Shown here piece after piece: positions 1 through 18,731 of a stretch of DNA of 37,270 nucleotides. The DNA comes from an uncultured Mycoplasmatota bacterium (GTDB lineage: Bacteria > Bacillota_I > Bacilli_A > RF39 > UBA660), in assembly GCA_948329525.1 (NCBI GenBank), contig CAOJBM010000007.1, forward strand, positions 1 to 37,270. The letters are read 5' to 3'. The notes below the pieces were generated by a model, which had not been told where the DNA came from, did not search any database, and worked only from the letters and a program-made list of their open reading frames with translations. Both the position numbers and the translations under genes were made by a program. Within the stretch, counting starts at the first letter, position 1. Every line of letters starts with the position of its first letter.

Positions 1-479
1 ATGGCTATGGAATAAGTGGTGGCTATGGAATAAGAAATGGCTATGGAATAAGTGGTGGCTCTGGAATAAGTGGTGGCTCTGGAATAAGTGATGGCTATGG
101 AATAAGTAGTGGCTCTGGAATAAGTGGTGGCTCTGGAATTAATAATTCTTGGGGTCTTACAAATTGTGAAGGTTGTTCAAGATGTATACTATGTTATGAC
201 TATACAGGAAAGTTAGCAATTTTTAATAAAGAAGTAACAGAAGAAAGATATAATAAAGTATTTAATGTATTATATTATAGAAATGATTGGTATCCTAAAT
301 TTAATAATGCTTATGATTTGAAAGGCGATAAAGAATGGGAAGAAACAGATGTTACAAGAATAGAAAGTGTTAGTTTAAAAAATGCCTGGTCTACAATTCC
401 ACAAGAATTAGATAATTTTATAAGAAATTTAGATGAATTTGATGAAGAAATATATAACAAGATTCGAGGTATAGAATAA
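1..479 (+). CDS. Gly-rich hexapeptide-repeat phage protein, 5' partial
   Basis: The reading frame is open from base 3 to the TAA at 477-479; its start is left of the window. The first 48 codons are eight hexapeptide units of the type GYGISG or GSGISG. A globular part of about 110 residues follows, with a cysteine-rich patch (NCEGCSRCILC) and a Trp-rich stretch (NDWYPKFNNAYD, then KNAWSTIPQELDNF). The arrangement of a low-complexity Gly stretch, a Cys patch and this C-terminal part recalls small early-region phage proteins of unknown function; I know no activity for it. The stop overlaps the start of the macro-domain gene, so the two are translationally coupled. Confidence 0.75.
   Translation, partial: GYGISGGYGIRNGYGISGGSGISGGSGISDGYGISSGSGISGGSGINNSWGLTNCEGCSRCILCYDYTGKLAIFNKEVTEERYNKVFNVLYYRNDWYPKFNNAYDLKGDKEWEETDVTRIESVSLKNAWSTIPQELDNFIRNLDEFDEEIYNKIRGIE
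3..146 (+). repeat. 18-bp tandem repeat inside the partial CDS
   Basis: Eight in-frame 18-bp units resembling GGCTATGGAATAAGTGGT stand head to tail and encode GYGISG, GYGIRN, GYGISG, GSGISG, GSGISD, GYGISS, GSGISG and GSGINN. The array is cut by the window edge, so the copy number is a minimum. The period is a multiple of three, so gain or loss of units would keep the frame. Confidence 0.85.
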
Positions 480-931
480 TGGCTTTAATATATAAAAAAG
501 GAGATATTCTAGAAGCTACAGAAGATATTATTTGTCATCAGTGTAATACTGAAGGTATATTTGGTGGAGGACTTGCTAAACAAATAGCAAGTCGATATCC
601 CAAATGTGAGTTATCATCAATAACTCACGTAAAAACTTTAAAAAATAAATGTGATGTTGTTGGAACTTATAACTTTTATTTTACTAATAATGATAAAAAT
701 ATAGTTAATTGTTTTACTCAAGATAAAGATTTTAACACAAATTATGAAGCAATAAAATTTGTATTTAATGATATATTAGAATATTGTAGTTTATTTAATC
801 ATACAATAGCAATCCCTTATAAATATGGTTGTGGTATTGCCAATGGAGATTGGAATATTGTACGTAAATTATTTGAAGATTTATCTAATGAATATAGTGT
901 TGATATAGTTGTGTATCAATTGGAAGATTAG
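479..931 (+). CDS. Macro domain protein (ADP-ribose/O-acetyl-ADP-ribose binding)
   Basis: A single macro domain fills the 150-residue protein. The GGGLA loop (29-33) after the CN.EG strand and the YGCGIANGDW motif (116-125) match the ALC1/TARG1/Poa1p-like branch, which binds ADP-ribose and often hydrolyses ADP-ribose 1''-phosphate or ADP-ribosyl groups. The protein has no extra domain and no signal peptide, so it is cytoplasmic. It starts on the stop codon of the preceding gene. Phages are known to carry macro-domain proteins; a role in reversing ADP-ribosylation or handling tRNA-splicing by-products would suit the RNA ligase 3 kb downstream, but that link is inference. Confidence 0.88.
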   Translation: MALIYKKGDILEATEDIICHQCNTEGIFGGGLAKQIASRYPKCELSSITHVKTLKNKCDVVGTYNFYFTNNDKNIVNCFTQDKDFNTNYEAIKFVFNDILEYCSLFNHTIAIPYKYGCGIANGDWNIVRKLFEDLSNEYSVDIVVYQLED

Positions 932-3937: not shown

Positions 3938-4561
3938 ATGATAAAAAAAGAAATATATCCTAAAACTAAAAGAGTTAGTTGTTTAGGAGATAAAGTATAT
4001 GTTACTGAAAAATTAGATGGGAGTAATTTAGTATTCTTCAAAAAAGATGAGGAATTATATATTGCTCAAAGAAAAAACATTTTTAAAATAAGTGAATTAG
4101 AAGAAGTTAAAGATATTTTATACAAAGGACTATATCAATGGCTATTAGACAACAAAGATATTTTAATTGCTGAATTACATAACAATAGTGCAATTTGTGG
4201 TGAGTGGCTAGGTATGGGTTGCTTAAAATATACAATAGATGAATTTGATAAAAAATGGTATATGTTTGCTAAGGCTAATATAGATGATGACTTTAATTTA
4301 TATAATCTTATTTATGAACACGAGTTATTCAAATATCCATTTATAAGTCAAGAAATACCTTCATTTATAGGAATAGTTCCAGAAGTTGCAGAACTTAATG
4401 TATTACCTACAAAAGAACATTTAGATAGTATTTACGAAAAATACTTAAATAAAGTAAATAGAAATGTTGAGGGTTTTGTAATTAACTACAAAAATATTAT
4501 TACTAAATATGTTCGTATGAAAAATGGTAAATTGCAAGAACATTTTGATAGGGAAAACTAG
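3938..4561 (+). CDS. RNA ligase, Rnl2/DRB0094-like nucleotidyltransferase
   Basis: 207 residues covering the adenylyltransferase core of ATP-dependent RNA ligases. Motif I is EKLDGSN (24-30) with K25 as the AMP-accepting lysine; motif III is ICGEWLG (86-92); IIIa is WYMFAKA (107-113); motif IV is VEGFVINYK (177-185); motif V is TKYVRMK (189-195). There is no C-terminal domain beyond motif V, so it is shorter than T4 Rnl2 (about 330 residues). Such enzymes seal nicked RNA; in phages, repair of tRNA cut by host anticodon nucleases is the classic role. No polynucleotide kinase partner is visible nearby. AAAAGGAGA lies upstream. Confidence 0.88.
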   Translation: MIKKEIYPKTKRVSCLGDKVYVTEKLDGSNLVFFKKDEELYIAQRKNIFKISELEEVKDILYKGLYQWLLDNKDILIAELHNNSAICGEWLGMGCLKYTIDEFDKKWYMFAKANIDDDFNLYNLIYEHELFKYPFISQEIPSFIGIVPEVAELNVLPTKEHLDSIYEKYLNKVNRNVEGFVINYKNIITKYVRMKNGKLQEHFDREN

Positions 4562-4743: not shown

Positions 4744-5214
4744 ATGTTAAGTGATGAAATTATAGAAAAAATGAAAGAAATGAACTTTACAGAAGAACAG
4801 ATAGATTTTGTTAATGATGAAGTAGTAAAAGAAGTTAATCATAATAATGGCTATAAAATAGTATGTGGAAAAGAATATATTTGTAGACGACAAAAAGGTG
4901 AAGGCTATTGTTTTTATAAAATTTCTGTATCAAAAAAGGGTCTTGAAAGAAAATATAGTCATGCTTTGAAACCTATAGTTTTTTTAAATTGTGACCCACC
5001 TAATACAGACACATCTAAAATAATTATAAAATCATTTTTTGAGGACTTCTATAAGAATCCAAAAGACCAATATACTTACATTTTTCCTCTAAAGATTACT
5101 GACTATGAATTAGTTGACAAAGAAACTGATGAAAAAATCGCAGAAGAAAAAGCTCTAAAAAGTTATCAAAATAATATTGCAAGTGAATTTGATGACATTG
5201 ATATATCATTTTAA
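4744..5214 (+). CDS. Hypothetical phage protein, 156 aa
   Basis: AGAGGAG lies upstream of ATG 4744. The N-terminus (DEIIEKMKEMNFTEEQIDFVNDEV) is a UBA-like three-helix segment by pattern only. The middle has a beta-rich core with basic residues (KEYICRRQKGEGYCFYKI), suggesting nucleic-acid contact, and the C-terminus is acidic (SEFDDIDISF), as in single-strand-binding or replisome-interacting proteins. The function cannot be assigned from sequence. It is the last gene before the recombinase promoter. Confidence 0.65.
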   Translation: MLSDEIIEKMKEMNFTEEQIDFVNDEVVKEVNHNNGYKIVCGKEYICRRQKGEGYCFYKISVSKKGLERKYSHALKPIVFLNCDPPNTDTSKIIIKSFFEDFYKNPKDQYTYIFPLKITDYELVDKETDEKIAEEKALKSYQNNIASEFDDIDISF

Positions 5215-5219
5215 TAAAA

Positions 5220-5261
5220 ATATCAAAAAGTATTGACTATTTGATATAATGGTGCTATATT
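5220..5261 (+). promoter_or_regulatory. Recombinase promoter with inverted-repeat operator
   Basis: TTGACT (5233-5238), a 17-bp spacer and TATATT (5256-5261) make a sigma-A promoter directly before the recombinase gene. The -35 box lies inside a perfect 8-bp inverted repeat, ATATCAAA (5220-5227) and TTTGATAT (5240-5247), 12 bp apart: a plausible repressor operator. Confidence 0.6.
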
Positions 5262-5284
5262 ATTAATACAAGGAAGTGGTTTAA

Positions 5285-6205
5285 ATGCTAAGTATTTTTA
5301 AAAAGAAAGAAGAAGTTTTTGATATTAACAATTTGTCAAAGAAGTTTTTAGAATACATAGATGTAGCACCTAAAACTATAGAAACATACAAAATTGCTTT
5401 AAGACAATTTGCAAATTATATGACAGAACAAAATATCAAGAATCCTACTAGAGAAGATATAATTAATTATCGCGAAAGTATCAAAGAAGTTTTGAAACCT
5501 ACTACAGTTAATAGTTATATGATTGCTTTAAGAAGTTTCTTTCAATTTTTATCGTATGAAGGTATTTACAAAAATATTGCTGAAAATGTTAAAGGTGTAA
5601 AATTAGAAAAAAGACATCTTAAATTAGGTTTATCTGATGAAGAACTTGAAGAAGTTTTGAATTTATACGGGAATAAAATGACATCTTTGGAAGAAAGGAC
5701 TATTTTAACAATTAAATTTATGTTTACTTGCGGACTTAGAGTTAATGAATTAGTAAATATTAGATTAAAAGATTTTTACAGAGATGGTGACACAATAATG
5801 CTAAAAGTTTTAGGAAAGGGTAGAGATGGAGAAAAACAAGATGTTATTAAGGTAGATGAAAGACTATTTGACCTTATCAAAAAGTATGTAGAAAAGTATA
5901 ACATTACTGATTATTTATTTGTAAGTACTAGTAATAACAATTATGGTAATAAATTAACAACTAAAACGATTAGACTTTTAGTAAAAGATGTATTTAAAAA
6001 GGCTAATTTAGATGATATTGACCTTAAAAGTTGTCATAGTTTGAGACATACAACAACAGAAAAGTTACTTAAGAATAACATAAGTATTGAAGAAGTTTCA
6101 CAATATATGAGGCATAAAAGTATACAAACTACAATGATATATAGCAAAGAACTTGACCAAAAAGAAAGTAATTGTAGTAATATATTAGCAGATAGTTTGT
6201 TTTAA
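5285..6205 (+). CDS. Tyrosine recombinase (XerC/D-like integrase)
   Basis: 306 residues: an N-terminal SAM-like core-binding domain (about 15-95) and a catalytic domain with all expected residues: R152 in CGLRVNEL, K178 in the GKGR turn, H251..R254 in HSLRH, H277 in MRHKS and Y286. It breaks and rejoins DNA through a 3'-phosphotyrosine. The length suits Xer-like enzymes or short phage integrases. It has its own promoter. It sits in mid-prophage, 27 kb from the likely tRNA-Arg attachment site, so it may not be the main integrase; dimer resolution, or service of a second, older insertion, are alternatives. Confidence 0.9.
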   Translation: MLSIFKKKEEVFDINNLSKKFLEYIDVAPKTIETYKIALRQFANYMTEQNIKNPTREDIINYRESIKEVLKPTTVNSYMIALRSFFQFLSYEGIYKNIAENVKGVKLEKRHLKLGLSDEELEEVLNLYGNKMTSLEERTILTIKFMFTCGLRVNELVNIRLKDFYRDGDTIMLKVLGKGRDGEKQDVIKVDERLFDLIKKYVEKYNITDYLFVSTSNNNYGNKLTTKTIRLLVKDVFKKANLDDIDLKSCHSLRHTTTEKLLKNNISIEEVSQYMRHKSIQTTMIYSKELDQKESNCSNILADSLF

Positions 6206-10536: not shown

Positions 10537-10565
10537 TTGACAAATATAAAAAAAGAGAGTAGTAT
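10537..10565 (+). promoter_or_regulatory. Promoter P1 of the giant ncRNA (TAGTATCT family)
   Basis: Consensus TTGACA (10537-10542), 17 bp, TAGTAT (10560-10565) followed by CT. It shares TAGTATCT with the sites at 12564, 12675 and 15208. Confidence 0.72.
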
Positions 10566-10571
10566 CTTATC

Positions 10572-11520
10572 ACTCTAAAAAGAGAACTTTTTAGAGATAG
10601 ATGTTTTTCAAAGCATTTATACAAAACCTCCAGATTCTTTATGGTTGCCTTTAGTAGGTAACCTAGAGCAGATTAGTCCCCCTACATCTGTTCTAGAGTA
10701 TCTATTAGAGATACAACATTTAAGTTCTTTGACAAGTGAATATTTTGAACTATATGAAAGACTTCATACAATGAAGTATAGATATTATCTAGTCCTTATT
10801 ACCTTTGAGAGAGATTTTAAAGGGGATTGAGTGAACTTTTATAGTGATATAAGAGTTAGAACCTTCAAAGAAGGGAAATAGATAATAGTAGTTTATTATA
10901 AGAGTTTATATGGCATAATGAACTTGTCGTTGACAATCAAAATTGCTAACATAAGGTTAGATGATAACTTGTGAGTAATATTATCTGTGGTGGATAAAGT
11001 GAAATCAAGAATAACCAACAAGTCAATTTGTAGTTGATACCTAGTGATAGGAGTATAAGACAAGAAGTTAGTTCAAGTAGCACAAATTCTACAGTTATGG
11101 ATAATTAAAAGTTTTCGATGAATGCGAAAAAAGAAAATGAACAATAATGGTTTGCCTAACGTGTGTGAAAGTTGATAAGAGAGATTTATCCTAGTATTTT
11201 AAAAGCTAAAGAAGAATAAGTGGTCGCTCCCTTATGAGGCTCTTTAGTGGCTAGTGGCTGAACAATAAATGGTTATAATAAATTAGTGTGAGGAATACCT
11301 AAATATTCATTTTTTAAAGAACTTAAATGATAATGGGAGTTGGTAGTCCTAGCCTAGCTTCGGCGGTCGTAGAAATACGAAGCACAAAATAGATAGCAAC
11401 CATAGCCTAAATACAAAATTAGGATTCTACTAAAATGTATCATCTACCAAAGGTAGACGGATATTCTTAAGTCGTTAGATGTCAGCTAGCGATTTATGTT
11501 TATGTGGAACGTCTACCAAT
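10572..11520 (+). ncRNA. Giant structured phage RNA (GOLLD/ROOL-like candidate)
   Basis: About 950 nt follow promoter P1 without a credible gene, yet are more GC-rich than their surroundings and full of hairpins: CTCTAAAAAG/CTTTTTAGAG near the 5' end; GGTTGCC/GGTAACC; AGAGCAGAT/ATCTGTTCT; GTATCT/AGATAC; CTTCAT/ATGAAG; CGTA-GAAA-TACG with a GNRA loop; CCTAA/TTAGG; TCGTTAG/CTAGCGA (11472-11492). A long-range 8-bp helix GGTAGACG (11452-11459)/CGTCTACC (11510-11517) closes the 3' domain 5 nt before a tRNA. Known giant phage RNAs GOLLD (about 800-900 nt) and ROOL (about 600 nt) are structured, non-coding and typically tRNA-adjacent; length favours GOLLD. The match is by architecture only, not by covariance model. 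Confidence 0.62.
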
Positions 11521-11522
11521 AT

Positions 11523-11598
11523 TGCCTTATGGTGAAATGGTAACACATTAGACTTTGAATCTGACATTTTCTAGGTTCGACCCCTAGCAAGACAACCA
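11523..11598 (+). tRNA. tRNA-Gln(UUG)-like, slightly degenerate
   Basis: The anticodon arm TTAGA-CTTTGAA-TCTGA gives anticodon TTG. The T-arm CTAGG-TTCGACC-CCTAG is perfect and CCA is encoded (11596-11598). The acceptor stem TGCCTTA/CAAGACA has C.A mismatches at pairs 3-70 and 7-66, and the variable region is 6 nt, so charging may be weak. It may act in translation of the CAA-rich phage genes, or as an RNase P signal that frees the 3' end of the giant RNA. A weak AAGAAT/ATTCTT-TTTT hairpin follows near 11610. Confidence 0.72.
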
Positions 11599-12719: not shown

Positions 12720-13427
12720 TTGGAAAATTTAAGTAAAGCAGAAAATGCTTTTGAAGAATCCAAGATTAAAAACCAAATTAAGACCCTAGAAAAATTTTAT
12801 GTTAATGCTCAATTAGATAATTTAGAAGAAATTGTACAACAAGAAAAAGACACTATTATAAATAGAATAGTAGAATTTAAAGACAAGTGCTTAACAAAAT
12901 TCGATGAAGAAACAGGAGATATTATACAAAATGGAGTAAAAATGACCCCTTTTGTTATATCTAATTATTTCTTTAGAAGTATTAACAATTTACAAAACAT
13001 TGAGCCACAATATAGTGGTGAACATTTGTCTATTTTATGGAATTTGTATCTTTATATGGTAGAACAAGTAAATTTGAACTTGTGTGAATTTACTCCCAAT
13101 ATAAGCCATTTTTGTAAATTTATTGGAATAACTACTAATGGACTTAAAAAAATGCTTAAAAGCTCAGATGAAGGAATTAAAACAGTTGTTCAAAAGATAT
13201 ACGATGTTTGTTATGACGAACAAATGACAATGTCAGAACTTGGAAAATATAATGCAAGAGCTACAACTTTTAGAATGAAGTCTGAAATGAACATTGTTGA
13301 AAAAGAGACTCCTCAAACTGTTATAAACATACAAAGTCTTGACTTAGATAGTATTAATAAAAGATTAAATGAAATGTCAAAATTTGACTCTAACGTGAAA
13401 GAAGCAGAATATGAAGAAAGACAATAA
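12720..13427 (+). CDS. terS: Terminase small subunit
   Basis: 235 residues from TTG 12720, with GGTGGTG (12707-12713) 6 nt upstream; GTG 12711 is an alternative. The central part NISHFCKFIGITTNGLKKML is a helix-turn-helix-like DNA-binding unit. The C-terminal MTMSELGKYNARATTFRMKSEMN followed by TVINIQSLDL matches the end of many Firmicute phage small terminases. The role is to recognise the cos/pac site and recruit the large subunit; the gene overlaps terL by 17 nt. Assignment rests mainly on position plus this pattern. Confidence 0.75.
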   Translation: MENLSKAENAFEESKIKNQIKTLEKFYVNAQLDNLEEIVQQEKDTIINRIVEFKDKCLTKFDEETGDIIQNGVKMTPFVISNYFFRSINNLQNIEPQYSGEHLSILWNLYLYMVEQVNLNLCEFTPNISHFCKFIGITTNGLKKMLKSSDEGIKTVVQKIYDVCYDEQMTMSELGKYNARATTFRMKSEMNIVEKETPQTVINIQSLDLDSINKRLNEMSKFDSNVKEAEYEERQ

Positions 13428-15180
13428 TTTTGACAAAGATAAAATTAAAAATACTATTTTAGATATATTAAGTTTATTAGAAAAAGAATTTATAAAAAAT
13501 AAAGGCACAAAAATTCCTAAAAATAAAGTTTTTGAAATAATGCAAGATTTAGTAGTATTATTTACTAACTATGTTGAAGAAGATACACACAATGCCGTTG
13601 AAATGATAAAAAAGAGATATATTCCATTAATAAAACTTCTTACTAAAATTGATACTGATATGGAACGTAAAGCCACTTATTTAACTCAATTAGAAAATGC
13701 TTATAGGTTAAGTGCAAAAGATGATTTCGGCTGTTTTTTAATTTATTACGAGTGGAACGAAGAAGATAAACTTTACGAAAAAAGATATTCAATACTTCAT
13801 TCTTATGTTTATTACTTAAATGAGATGGCTCACGATGATACTTTTGAAGTCATAATTGCAAATCTTCCATCTGGTTATGGCAAAACTCGTATAGTTAAAT
13901 TATATGAGGCTTGGAGATTGGGATTGCAACCTAAAGGAACATTCTTAGATTTATGTTCAAATGATACTGTAGTAAAAGGTGGTTCACGTTCTGTAATAGA
14001 TATCATTAAAAATGAAAGATATGGATTAGTATTTCCACATTTGAATTATCAAACTTATGGTAAAGATTTATTTTTAAAAGAAACTGATGGAGAATGGAAA
14101 GTTAAAGATTGTAGTATGCTTGCAAGTTATTATGCTAGTACAACAAATTCCAACGTAGTAGGACAACGTGCTAGTTTAAGTATTCATATTGATGACTTAT
14201 ATGCCGATTATAAAGAGGCTTTAGATGAAAATTTAAATATGTACTATTACAATAAGTATCTAACAGTATGGAGAAAGAGATATATTCAAAATAAAACTCC
14301 GCAAGTTATTATAAGTGGGACTATGTGGTCGCCTAATGATTTTATGGTTAAAGTAATTGACTTGATGAAAACCGAAAATAAATTTATTAAACACCCTAAA
14401 TTTAAGTATACATACATAAGTGAAGATGGCAAAAAAGTTATTATCAAAGTACCAGCACTCGACCCAATAACAGATAAGTCTACTTGCGAAGAATTAAGAA
14501 GTACAGCAGAACTTCACAAAGAACGAAAAAGCATGGATACTTATCTTTGGGAAACAAACTTTCAACAAAATCCTACAACTCCAGAAGGACTAGAATTTGA
14601 TTGGAAAAATTTACAAACTTATGATGAAAAGCCAATTAATCAATATAATTGTGCTTATTCTGTAATAGATGGTACAAGAAAAAGTGGAAAAGACTTCTTT
14701 TCAATGCCAATTTATTATGATTATTACGAAAAATATGCTTTAGTTGATTGTATCTTTACTAAAGTAGCTACAAGTGAACTTATTGATGATATTATTGAAA
14801 AAATAATGAAACATCATATTGTTAAATTAGTAATTGAATCTAATGTCGATGGTGGATTAAAAAAGGTTTTAGAAGAAAAATTACATAAATTAGGAGTCCA
14901 TTATTGTGTCATTATTGAAAAATACAATACTGTTCCTAAAAAGATAAGAATTGAAGCTGAAAAAGGTAATATTGTAAATAAAATAGTATTTCCAAGTAGA
15001 AATTGTATCGAAAATGTTGAGATGTCAAGATTTATGAGCAACTTAACCTTATATAACTCAAGTGGTAGAAATGTTAATGATGATGCTCCAGATAGTAATG
15101 CCATGTTTACGAGTGAAATTATTGGCGAAAAAGCAAAGCCAAACTATGTAAAATTTACAAAAAGACCTTCTTTTATGTGA
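13411..15180 (+). CDS. terL: Terminase large subunit
   Basis: 589 residues. ATPase: Walker A NLPSGYGKTR (151-160) and Walker B SLSIHIDDLY (255-264, acidic pair 261-262), then the coupling segment ISGTMWSPND. RNase-H-like nuclease: D420 in VIDGTRKSGKDF, E475 in VIESNVDGG and the late acidic DDAPDSN. It pumps DNA into the prohead through the portal and cuts concatemers. Length and layout are normal for siphovirus TerL with an N-terminal helical extension of about 100 residues. Confidence 0.93.
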   Translation: MKKDNNFDKDKIKNTILDILSLLEKEFIKNKGTKIPKNKVFEIMQDLVVLFTNYVEEDTHNAVEMIKKRYIPLIKLLTKIDTDMERKATYLTQLENAYRLSAKDDFGCFLIYYEWNEEDKLYEKRYSILHSYVYYLNEMAHDDTFEVIIANLPSGYGKTRIVKLYEAWRLGLQPKGTFLDLCSNDTVVKGGSRSVIDIIKNERYGLVFPHLNYQTYGKDLFLKETDGEWKVKDCSMLASYYASTTNSNVVGQRASLSIHIDDLYADYKEALDENLNMYYYNKYLTVWRKRYIQNKTPQVIISGTMWSPNDFMVKVIDLMKTENKFIKHPKFKYTYISEDGKKVIIKVPALDPITDKSTCEELRSTAELHKERKSMDTYLWETNFQQNPTTPEGLEFDWKNLQTYDEKPINQYNCAYSVIDGTRKSGKDFFSMPIYYDYYEKYALVDCIFTKVATSELIDDIIEKIMKHHIVKLVIESNVDGGLKKVLEEKLHKLGVHYCVIIEKYNTVPKKIRIEAEKGNIVNKIVFPSRNCIENVEMSRFMSNLTLYNSSGRNVNDDAPDSNAMFTSEIIGEKAKPNYVKFTKRPSFM

Positions 15181-15269: not shown

Positions 15270-16775
15270 ATAAAAACTTATGGAAGAAAAACCATTTATG
15301 CCAATTATACTGAAAAAGAAATAATTGAAGCTAAAGGTAAGAAACTAAAAGACATTGTTATAGACATACTTAAAAATAGTTTAATAATTCATGAACGTAA
15401 TAGAATAGAAACTAATTATTTATTTGCCTATTACAATGGACAACAAGATATTTACATAGAAAAAAAGAAAATCACTAGAACAGATATAAACAATACAACA
15501 GTTGAAAATTGGGCTTATGCTCTTTTGGATTTTAAAAAAGGTTGGTTATTAGGAAAACCTACACAATACTCATTACAAGGAAATCGTTCATCTGAAGAAG
15601 TAACTTCTTTGAATAATTATTGTAGCTATCAAAATAAAAAATCTAAAGACCAATTTATTTTTGAAGATATGCTTGTGTGTGGTCGAGGTTTTAGATTTAT
15701 TGATACAGCTAAGGAAAAAGATAGTGAATCACCTTTTAAAATAATAAATGTAGACTCAAATTGTTGTGAAGTTGTCTACTCAAGTAGTAGTGAGCATGAA
15801 CAATTACTTTCTTTTATCGAAACATCTAAAAAATTTATTTTTACTAACAAAAATAATAAAGAGGAAGAAAGATATTACAAAGAATACACAGTTTACACAA
15901 GAAATATGGTATTAGTTGTAACTAACAAAAATAATGAATTTAATGTTGTTAAAGCAACTCCAAACATTCTTAACGAACACAGAATTACTGAATATTATCT
16001 AAACAGAAAGAGAATATCATTAATAGAAATTGGCAAAGATTTATTTAATGATATAAATTATCTTGAAAGTATGGATAAAGATGATATGGAACAATTTGTA
16101 AATGCATTATTAGTATTTACAAATGCTCAAATTGAAGATGCAAATGATGTCAAAGAATTTAAAGAAATAGGAGCAATTTGTATTAATTCTACAGACCAAA
16201 AACCAGCTAAAGTTGAATCATTAGACCAAAGACTTAATGCAAATTCAACTAATACATATTATTCAAGATTAGTTAATGCTCTCCATCAGATATTAGGTAT
16301 TCCTAAAGCCGGAGATAATGGAGAAGTATCTTATGGAGATACAGGGCAAGCAAGATTAACAGGTCAAGGATATACAAGTGCTGGAATAAGAGCAAATAAC
16401 GATGAAACAATGTTTGAAATGTGTGATTTGAATAGTTTAAAAGCAATTCTTAAAATCTGTAGAGAAACAGAAAGTAAAGTTAAATCACTTAAAAGAATTG
16501 ATGTAAAATTAAACTTTCAAAGAGATATGTCTGATGGTTTGTTAGTAAAATCACAAGCACTGCAAACATTGTATGCTTCTAAAGTTCCAAGAGAAATTGC
16601 AAATGCAATAATTGGTCTATTCCCAGACCCTAATATCGTAACTAACTTACAAGAAAACATATATGGAAAAGAAGGAATAGAAGTAACTCCTAAAGTTACT
16701 ACAAAACCTAATGATATTAAAGAGCAAAATAATAAAATACAAGATATAAATCAAAAAGCAATACAAGGAGTTTAA
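15270..16775 (+). CDS. Portal protein, SPP1 gp6-like, apparently starting at AUA
   Basis: The frame from 15270 gives 501 residues, close to SPP1 gp6 (about 500). The first 85 residues hold conserved portal features (LIIHERNRIETNYLFAYYNGQQDIYI, then NNTTVENWAYALLDFKKGWLLGKP), so the first standard start, TTG 15525, would truncate it. No ATG, GTG or TTG occurs between the upstream in-frame TGA (15261-15263) and 15525. AGAGGTGA (15256-15263) is ideally spaced, 7 nt, for ATA 15270; CTG 15267 is the alternative. The dodecameric ring at the capsid vertex docks terminase and the tail. Confidence 0.88.
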   Translation: MKTYGRKTIYANYTEKEIIEAKGKKLKDIVIDILKNSLIIHERNRIETNYLFAYYNGQQDIYIEKKKITRTDINNTTVENWAYALLDFKKGWLLGKPTQYSLQGNRSSEEVTSLNNYCSYQNKKSKDQFIFEDMLVCGRGFRFIDTAKEKDSESPFKIINVDSNCCEVVYSSSSEHEQLLSFIETSKKFIFTNKNNKEEERYYKEYTVYTRNMVLVVTNKNNEFNVVKATPNILNEHRITEYYLNRKRISLIEIGKDLFNDINYLESMDKDDMEQFVNALLVFTNAQIEDANDVKEFKEIGAICINSTDQKPAKVESLDQRLNANSTNTYYSRLVNALHQILGIPKAGDNGEVSYGDTGQARLTGQGYTSAGIRANNDETMFEMCDLNSLKAILKICRETESKVKSLKRIDVKLNFQRDMSDGLLVKSQALQTLYASKVPREIANAIIGLFPDPNIVTNLQENIYGKEGIEVTPKVTTKPNDIKEQNNKIQDINQKAIQGV

Positions 16776-16790
16776 ATACTCCTTAGAAAT

Positions 16791-16884
16791 GTAGTGTTGG
16801 GTGAGTCAGGCTGAAACCACTCGTCTACTAAACGAGAAGCCTTGTAATAAAGGCTCGAAAGTTCGAATCTTTCACACTACGCCA
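16791..16884 (+). tRNA. tRNA-Ser with anticodon ACU
   Basis: 94-nt class II tRNA: acceptor GTAGTGT/ACACTAC, discriminator G, encoded CCA (16882-16884); D-stem GGT/ACC; anticodon arm CTCGT-CTACTAA-ACGAG giving anticodon ACT; long variable arm AGCCTT/AAGGCT; T-arm GAAAG-TTCGAAT-CTTTC. All stems are perfect. The common bacterial tRNA for AGY serine codons has GCT; A at position 34 is unusual and would favour AGU, a frequent Ser codon in this phage. It lies inside the virion operon, between portal and scaffold. Confidence 0.92.
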
Positions 16885-17631: not shown

Positions 17632-17642
17632 AGATGAAAATT

Positions 17643-18731
17643 ATGGCAAAACAAATTAATGAAACAAAAAGTAAAGGTTTAGCTTTTTACTATGATGAAG
17701 AATTGTTTAATGATGCATGGGGTAATGAAGTCGACCCAACATCATTAGTTCTTTTAGAAAGTGGTGTAGTAGTAAACGACCCAGAAATTGAAAGTCAAAT
17801 TGCTAATGGTGGTAATTATTATACAATTCCATTCTACAAAGATTTAGAAGGCGATGAACAACCTTACGATGGTGAAACAAATATCACAACTGATTACACA
17901 GATAGTGGAAAACAAAGTGGTGTAGTTCTTGGACAAATGAAGAGTTTTGGAAACAAAGTATTTGTTAGAGATTTCACTACAGCTGACCCAATGGCAAATA
18001 TAATTGCTAGAATTGGTAAATATTGGGCAAAAATAGACCAAAAAACTGTTATAAATGTTCTTAAAGGAATTTTTGGAATAACAGGGAATACTGAATGGAG
18101 TAAACATACAACTAATATTGCTACTAAAACAACAACTGTTGCAGAAACTAATAAGATTGGTTTAACAACATTAAGAGATACTGCTGTTAAAGCATTAGGT
18201 GAAAATGCTGATGTATTATCATTTGCTATTATGCACTCTGATGTAGCTAATACATTATCTAATTTACAAGTATTAAAGTTCTTTACTTATCAAAGTGGAG
18301 GAATGTCTTACGATGTTAGAGTTGCAAGAAGTGGAAATATGTTAGTTTTAGTATCAGACCAAGTTCCTGTTGAAAGTAGTTCAACTGCTACAGGCGAAAA
18401 AGAATATACAACTTACTTATGTGGTGCAGGTGCAATATTAACAGCTCCAGCTCCTGTTGAAAAACCAAGTGACTTTGTATATGATGCAAAATTAGCTGGT
18501 GGTACAGAAGAACTTATAACTAGACGTAGAAAAACATATCACCCAAATGGATTTACATTTACATATCATGAAAAGAAAGTTACAGGTGAAGGTGCTAGTG
18601 CTACAACTACTTATGAAGTTAAACCATTACCAACAACTATCACTAAAGAAGACTATGCTTTACCACAAAATTGGACTCTTGAGTTAAGAGCTGATAACAT
18701 TAATTTAGCTAGATTAATTACAAACGGATAG
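17643..18731 (+). CDS. Major capsid protein (HK97 fold, predicted)
   Basis: 362 residues from ATG 17643 (AGGAGA 9 nt upstream; ATG 17634 lies within that site). Typical features: an N-terminal arm, NGGNYYTIPFYKDLEGDEQPYDG (an E-loop-like region near 60-80), the A..W...D spine stretch (IARIGKYWAKIDQKTVINVLKGIF), a SFAIMHSDVANTLSNLQVLKFF peripheral segment, and late beta strands with RRRKTYHPNGFTF. This is the pattern of the Firmicute coat proteins that follow scaffold genes. Forms the icosahedral shell. Confidence 0.87.
   Translation: MAKQINETKSKGLAFYYDEELFNDAWGNEVDPTSLVLLESGVVVNDPEIESQIANGGNYYTIPFYKDLEGDEQPYDGETNITTDYTDSGKQSGVVLGQMKSFGNKVFVRDFTTADPMANIIARIGKYWAKIDQKTVINVLKGIFGITGNTEWSKHTTNIATKTTTVAETNKIGLTTLRDTAVKALGENADVLSFAIMHSDVANTLSNLQVLKFFTYQSGGMSYDVRVARSGNMLVLVSDQVPVESSSTATGEKEYTTYLCGAGAILTAPAPVEKPSDFVYDAKLAGGTEELITRRRKTYHPNGFTFTYHEKKVTGEGASATTTYEVKPLPTTITKEDYALPQNWTLELRADNINLARLITNG

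Follow-up and report, generated by a model that had tools for sequence, protein, structure and literature searches.

A prophage ROOL RNA adjoins a second structured RNA that may be a decoy for a predicted nuclease of gut Bacilli

In a prophage of an uncultured Mycoplasmatota bacterium, a ROOL RNA is followed by a second, separate structured RNA (the element) which, in related bacteria, is encoded upstream of a gene for a predicted nuclease of the PBECR4 family. Both RNAs lie in the 37,270-nucleotide stretch of DNA that was analyzed (the window). Because related bacteria have the element in front of a gene for a predicted RNA-cutting toxin, the phage may hold a decoy antidote. By analogy with known toxin-antitoxin systems, our preferred reading is that the site is a counter-defense island of ROOL and tRNA in which the element would be an RNA antitoxin in the bacterial cassettes and a decoy antitoxin in the phages. 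We give this reading a probability of about 0.5.

The locus is a prophage, as an earlier note on this DNA had supposed, since integrase, terminase, SPP1-type portal, and major head protein genes are all present (Table 1). A RecU-type resolvase gene is also found among the phage genes around the RNA stretch, and host sporulation genes start near 32.7 kb. Viral contigs gave no close relatives of the terminase, and named phages and plasmids had no usable match at either the DNA or the protein level. The note had described positions 10537 to 11520 as free of credible genes, richer in G+C than the flanks, strongly structured, and adjacent to a tRNA, and each of these statements held. The ORF check of the stretch found no ORF of more than 61 amino acids and no protein frame running through the region, the G+C content is 0.28 to 0.36 versus 0.12 to 0.25 in the left flank and 0.23 to 0.27 in the right flank, the predicted fold of the 965-nt transcript has a z of -6.3 (0 of 20 shuffles equally stable), and the tRNA was confirmed as tRNA-Gln. 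The consensus promoter is there, but sites of its quality are as numerous in shuffled sequence. What had been taken for one RNA of about 950 nt turned out to be composite, as there is a leader of about 145 nt upstream of ROOL, a separate element of about 103 nt, and a hairpin segment of about 75 nt. The whole is a noncoding RNA island of the prophage, with leader hairpins, ROOL, the second structured RNA, and tRNA-Gln, probably made as one transcript. A perfect 9-bp pairing between leader and element (10640-10648 with 11396-11404) was rejected, as it is within chance for a region so long.

Table 1. Positions of the features discussed in the text
Feature	Position	Strand	Remark
Integrase	5285-6205		phage-type gene of same locus
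Promoter-like TTGACA-17-TAGTAT	10537-10565	+	upstream of RNA island; 10/12 matches
5' leader with hairpins 10573-10596 and long hairpin about 10650-10711	10573-10716	+	outside Rfam ROOL model
ROOL RNA (RF03087), P1 included	10717-11329	+	Rfam match 10726-11318
Extended ROOL P1, 5' strand	10717-10745	+	pairs with 11301-11329
Extended ROOL P1, 3' strand	11301-11329	+	no terminator after
Structured RNA element (PBECR4-associated RNA)	11335-11437	+	covariance model, alignment
Element P1	11340-11346/11427-11433	+	
Element P2	11352-11354/11362-11364	+	
Element P3 with GAAA loop, TCGTA-GAAA-TACGA	11367-11371/11376-11380	+	
Element P4	11406-11410/11419-11423	+	
Hairpin segment between element and tRNA	11442-11517	+	~75 nt
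tRNA-Gln (TTG)	11523-11598	+	confirmed
Phage terminase large subunit	13411-15180	+	
SPP1-type portal	15525-16775		phage-type gene of same locus
Major head protein	17634-18731		phage-type gene of same locus

The core of the island is, with near certainty, a new representative of an established kind of RNA, ROOL, and it matches the covariance model over its full length (model positions 1 to 574 of 574, 158.9 bits, E 7.8e-34, gathering score 99.1). Of the two identities offered at first, GOLLD or ROOL, the former can be ruled out. Like GOLLD, the RNA is a giant phage RNA near tRNAs, but the Rfam GOLLD model has no match in the window at the gathering threshold or in the stretch at E up to 10. The helix GGTAGACG/CGTCTACC, proposed as the long-range closing helix, does exist (11452-11459/11510-11517), but it lies outside ROOL, between the element and the tRNA, and the dominant long-range helix is ROOL P1 (29 nt, 90% complementary), which had been missed. 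Octameric cage assembly was shown for ROOL env-120, and phage ROOLs near tRNAs have been described (PMC12286853). By homology, the ROOL in the window would be expected to fold and assemble like other ROOLs into a homo-octameric cage. It resembles them in its full-length model match, its prophage site by a tRNA, its long P1, and its variable linker region, and it differs in its added leader and in the second RNA and tRNA that follow on the 3' side without a terminator. To our knowledge, the cage structure of ROOL has been solved and no function is known.

P1 is immediately followed by a terminator-like hairpin in three ROOLs (L024, L025, and L029) that come from the same bacterial family. No terminator was found after ROOL P1 in the window, and transcription should therefore run through the element into tRNA-Gln, which probably forms part of the ROOL transcript. 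Two of these ROOLs with a terminator-like hairpin after P1 (L024 and L025) lie beside apparently chromosomal genes, and one (L025) has a promoter-like site at P1; these two are possibly nonphage ROOLs. The host genome of the window has one ROOL, five more were found in related genomes and phages (L023, L024, L025, L029, and L163), and another is present in a 104-kb viral contig (G195). Carriers known from DNA similarity amount to at least 5 of 146 genomes of the order, a minimum figure and not a frequency. The ROOL pattern ACAAGNNNNTNGTNCAAGTAGC gave 18 matches in viral contigs, all due to chance, and the single yield of a tightened sequence pattern was a distant ROOL (L021).

That the element is a real RNA family missing from Rfam is nearly certain. 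When 146 genomes of the order were searched at the DNA level, three places (L028, L030, and L031) had matches confined to 11334-11433, and no ROOL was found beside them. The shared segment is a separate RNA. No Rfam family matched it at E up to 5. The new class that the earlier note had considered thus holds for the 3' element and fails for the core. A covariance model (R1), built from four copies, matched in 11 of 193 genomes, and a scan with the core pattern CCAGCCTAKCTTCGGCG, its matches verified with the covariance model, raised the count to about 60 distinct copies. Since most relatives were fetched by this exact pattern, the conservation of the core is partly imposed, and this holds as well for part of the near invariance of the P2 hairpin GCC-UAGCUUC-GGC. 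Covariation, which the note had named as a check, is strong: among 59 sequences, 18 of 25 pairs are altered on both sides, and the covariation score is 0.326, whereas shuffling the partners gives 0.145 and sliding them no more than 0.079. An independent RNAalifold prediction from the alignment recovered P1, P2, and P4, with 11 of 14 pairs covarying. The GAAA-capped stem that had been counted within the giant RNA is present as described (11367-11380), but it lies outside ROOL and is P3 of the element. A possible pseudoknot between the P2 loop (CUUC) and a later GAAG fails in copies of the GAUAG type, including that in the window, and was rejected. With a further covariance model (R2), nothing was found outside the bacterial family in 295 genomes of the phylum, which indicates a system restricted to this lineage and to phages.

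The element is linked to the PBECR4 gene, which is the first same-strand gene downstream in 28 loci (27 distinct) and is found at no other place within those 27. The protein has about 190 amino acids, and its only Pfam match above the cut-off is PF18813 (E 7e-8 to 9e-10 in the six scanned), described as a phage Barnase-EndoU-ColicinE5/D-RelE-like nuclease; PADLOC gave no match for the cassette proteins. Among 193 genomes of the order, the element accompanies stand-alone PBECR4 proteins of about 195 amino acids above the Pfam cut-off in 5 of 5 genomes but none of five longer PBECR4 proteins. In most cassettes, a TATACT-like box lies 9 to 10 nt upstream of the element, and an intrinsic terminator follows it directly. 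Distances between RNAs and between PBECR4 proteins are correlated (Mantel r 0.52, 0 of 5,000 permutations), a result that co-inheritance alone would also give. A model of the protein (pLDDT 92.4) gave weak structural alignments, with Z up to 3.3, and most of the chains listed were RelE, BrnT, YoeB, HigB, or RegB RNases. Against the PDB, Foldseek returned no match below an E of 0.1 and a sequence profile search none at all, and PBECR4 is not named in the literature that was searched. Another 17 chromosomal copies stand without PBECR4, among them L088, L126, L136, L100, L138, and L141, and several have their own promoter box and terminator. They may be solitary antitoxin-like RNAs or have a second function.

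In type III toxin-antitoxin systems, a promoter, a structured RNA, and a terminator precede a gene of RNase type, and the antitoxin RNA requires short tandem repeats (PMC5086642). The cassettes resemble ToxIN, CptIN, and TenpIN in having a promoter, a structured RNA, a Rho-independent terminator, and a predicted RNase gene. The order of RNA, intrinsic terminator, and toxin-type gene is found in 27 relatives; the copy in the window has no such gene. Also as in type III systems, the cassettes occur in widely varying, unrelated surroundings, some of them beside recombinase or integrase genes (directly before such a gene in L058, L097, L158, and L161). In contrast to the short tandem pseudoknot repeats of type III antitoxins, the element is a single four-helix unit of about 100 nt, and alignments and model searches found one unit per locus and no tandem repeats. 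The protein also differs, as PBECR4 is a predicted BECR/RelE-like protein and is not of the ToxN, CptN, or TenpN type. Because both the tandem repeats and a ToxN-type toxin are missing, we do not file the cassette as a type III member.

Copies of the element in phage-like surroundings number 15 distinct ones, that of the window included; for four of them (L144, L149, L171, and L156), phage status was judged by eye from the neighboring genes. Six lie between a phage gene and TerS or TerL (L054, L055, L068, L099, L108, and L143), and others lie beside tRNAs (L062, L073, L163, and the window, as well as L156, judged by eye). None of the 13 genomes or records with phage-type copies contains PBECR4. 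As the host genome of the window also has no PBECR4 gene, a decoy would have its target in other hosts. Promoter box and terminator are both absent from most phage copies. The phage copies nevertheless covary as a group, with a score of 0.337 versus 0.167 when shuffled, and thus retain their structure although no toxin is present. The RNA tree has low resolution, and its well-supported branches force at least three switches between phage and nonphage copies. Four phages have both ROOL and the element. The distance between the two is shortest in the window (5 nt), followed by L163 (about 440 nt), G195 (about 10 kb), and G138 (17 kb). The order in L163 is tRNA-Gln, ROOL, element, and a tRNA-like sequence, and in G195 there are 16 tRNAs between and around ROOL and the element, plus an OLE-type RNA.

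Phage mimicry of an RNA antitoxin has a demonstrated precedent in the pseudo-ToxI of phage phiTE (PMC3475682). As in phiTE, a phage here has a copy, without the nuclease, of an RNA that is encoded elsewhere before a nuclease gene. Whereas the phiTE mimic was obtained from escape mutants and arose by repeat expansion, the case made here is built from sequences, and single copies are stably kept in several phage lineages, some by ROOL and tRNAs. The putative gut Bacilli cassette would consist of a promoter, an RNA of about 100 nt, a terminator, and the PBECR4 nuclease gene, and its RNA would be the antitoxin of a type III-like toxin-antitoxin system and would either bind the nuclease or serve as its substrate. 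We infer that the nuclease is toxic and that binding of the RNA neutralizes it. On infection or lysogenization of a cassette-holding cell, the phage RNA alone would then neutralize the nuclease as a decoy. In the island, the element would be cotranscribed with ROOL and would be freed from the transcript through the adjoining tRNA and possibly also through the nuclease. That this is a new RNA-protein toxin-antitoxin system of a single RNA of about 100 nt and a PBECR4 RNase across gut Bacilli, whose antitoxin RNA is used by unrelated phages as counter-defense in ROOL/tRNA islands, we propose tentatively and at somewhat less than even odds. That one cage could bear eight decoys, through a 3'-terminal element on each ROOL transcript, seems very improbable to us; if it were true, it would be the first testable role for ROOL.

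Among the other explanations, the least improbable, though still unlikely, is that the element acts in cis on the next gene as an attenuator or riboswitch-like leader, this gene being PBECR4 in the cassettes and a phage gene in the phages. An RNA followed by a terminator and a gene is the layout of an attenuator too, but the phage copies precede unrelated genes (TerS, scaffold, and HNH) or tRNAs, mostly without a terminator, and orphan copies stand before opposite-strand genes. Given these varied downstream genes, missing terminators, and opposite-strand neighbors, a trans-acting RNA fits better. The element could also be a functional partner of PBECR4, such as a guide, scaffold, or cofactor, the phage copies then being decoys or dominant-negative partners. 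The same adjacency and codivergence with PBECR4 would agree with this, as would the fully conserved GCCUAGCUUCGGC hairpin, a candidate protein-binding site, but the alignment shows no obvious variable segment resembling a guide, and we consider such a role distinctly unlikely. We know of no RNA partners of this kind for BECR nucleases. It is less probable still that the phage copies are inert remnants of cassettes that lost the nuclease; orphan and cassette copies do interleave on the RNA tree, but the covariation persists when the phage copies are taken alone, the loss of promoter and terminator has left their structure intact, and they turn up repeatedly in tRNA islands. Finally, that this is an ordinary phage ROOL beside a tRNA, with an unremarkable extension or transcript tail as its 3' segment, agrees with the secure ROOL identity and with the known phage ROOLs near tRNAs (PMC12286853) but is hardly credible and for that segment is refuted by its independent copies, as about 60 relatives were found, most of which have no ROOL; they covary strongly and come with a promoter and terminator of their own.

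The occurrence of ROOL beside an RNA that is encoded elsewhere before a predicted RNase gene provides a concrete context for testing ROOL, namely, counter-defense in islands of tRNAs and noncoding RNAs. The element itself is a well-supported RNA family outside Rfam, tied to the nuclease family PBECR4. If the decoy reading is true, it predicts that the phage RNA neutralizes the PBECR4 nuclease.

Several further observations concern the island and its surroundings. In the hairpin segment, GGTAGACG can pair with CGTCTACC or with ATCTACC just upstream, and a direct repeat, TGTATCATCTACCAA/TGGAACGTCTACCAA, permits alternative pairing. A segment AGACG...AACGTCTA(C/A)CA after ROOL is common to the window (11442-11517) and to G138, downstream of the L023 ROOL; its appearance suggests either a degenerate tRNA acceptor end or a further small RNA. 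Between the portal and scaffold genes of the window, ARAGORN predicts a tRNA-Ser (ACT) at 16791-16884 (+) without Rfam support, and the same gap in the G138 prophage holds the new element and tRNA-Gly, -Pro, and -Ser. One copy of the element (L099, 2729-2837, minus strand) is in a contig filed under a Methanobrevibacter MAG with the gene order of bacterial phage contigs, probably a misbinned phage. A partial match to OLE RNA (RF01071, 107.5 bits, gathering score 50) at 5177-5380 (-) of IMGVR_UViG_3300028832_000114 (L062) lies within an array of phage tRNAs that includes the element as well, and a ROOL is present on the same contig, so that three odd RNAs (OLE, ROOL, and the element) are found in one phage. 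The prophage of the window also encodes a stand-alone DarG-like macrodomain protein at 479-931 (+) (NCBIfam DarG E 2.7e-9, far below the cut-off score; Pfam Macro E 0.0036), beside which no DarT was noticed and which is a possible second antitoxin mimic, and an RNA ligase at 3938-4561 (+) (Pfam PF09414). Phage RNA ligases are able to mend RNAs cut by host nucleases, and a counter-defense role of both proteins is plausible.
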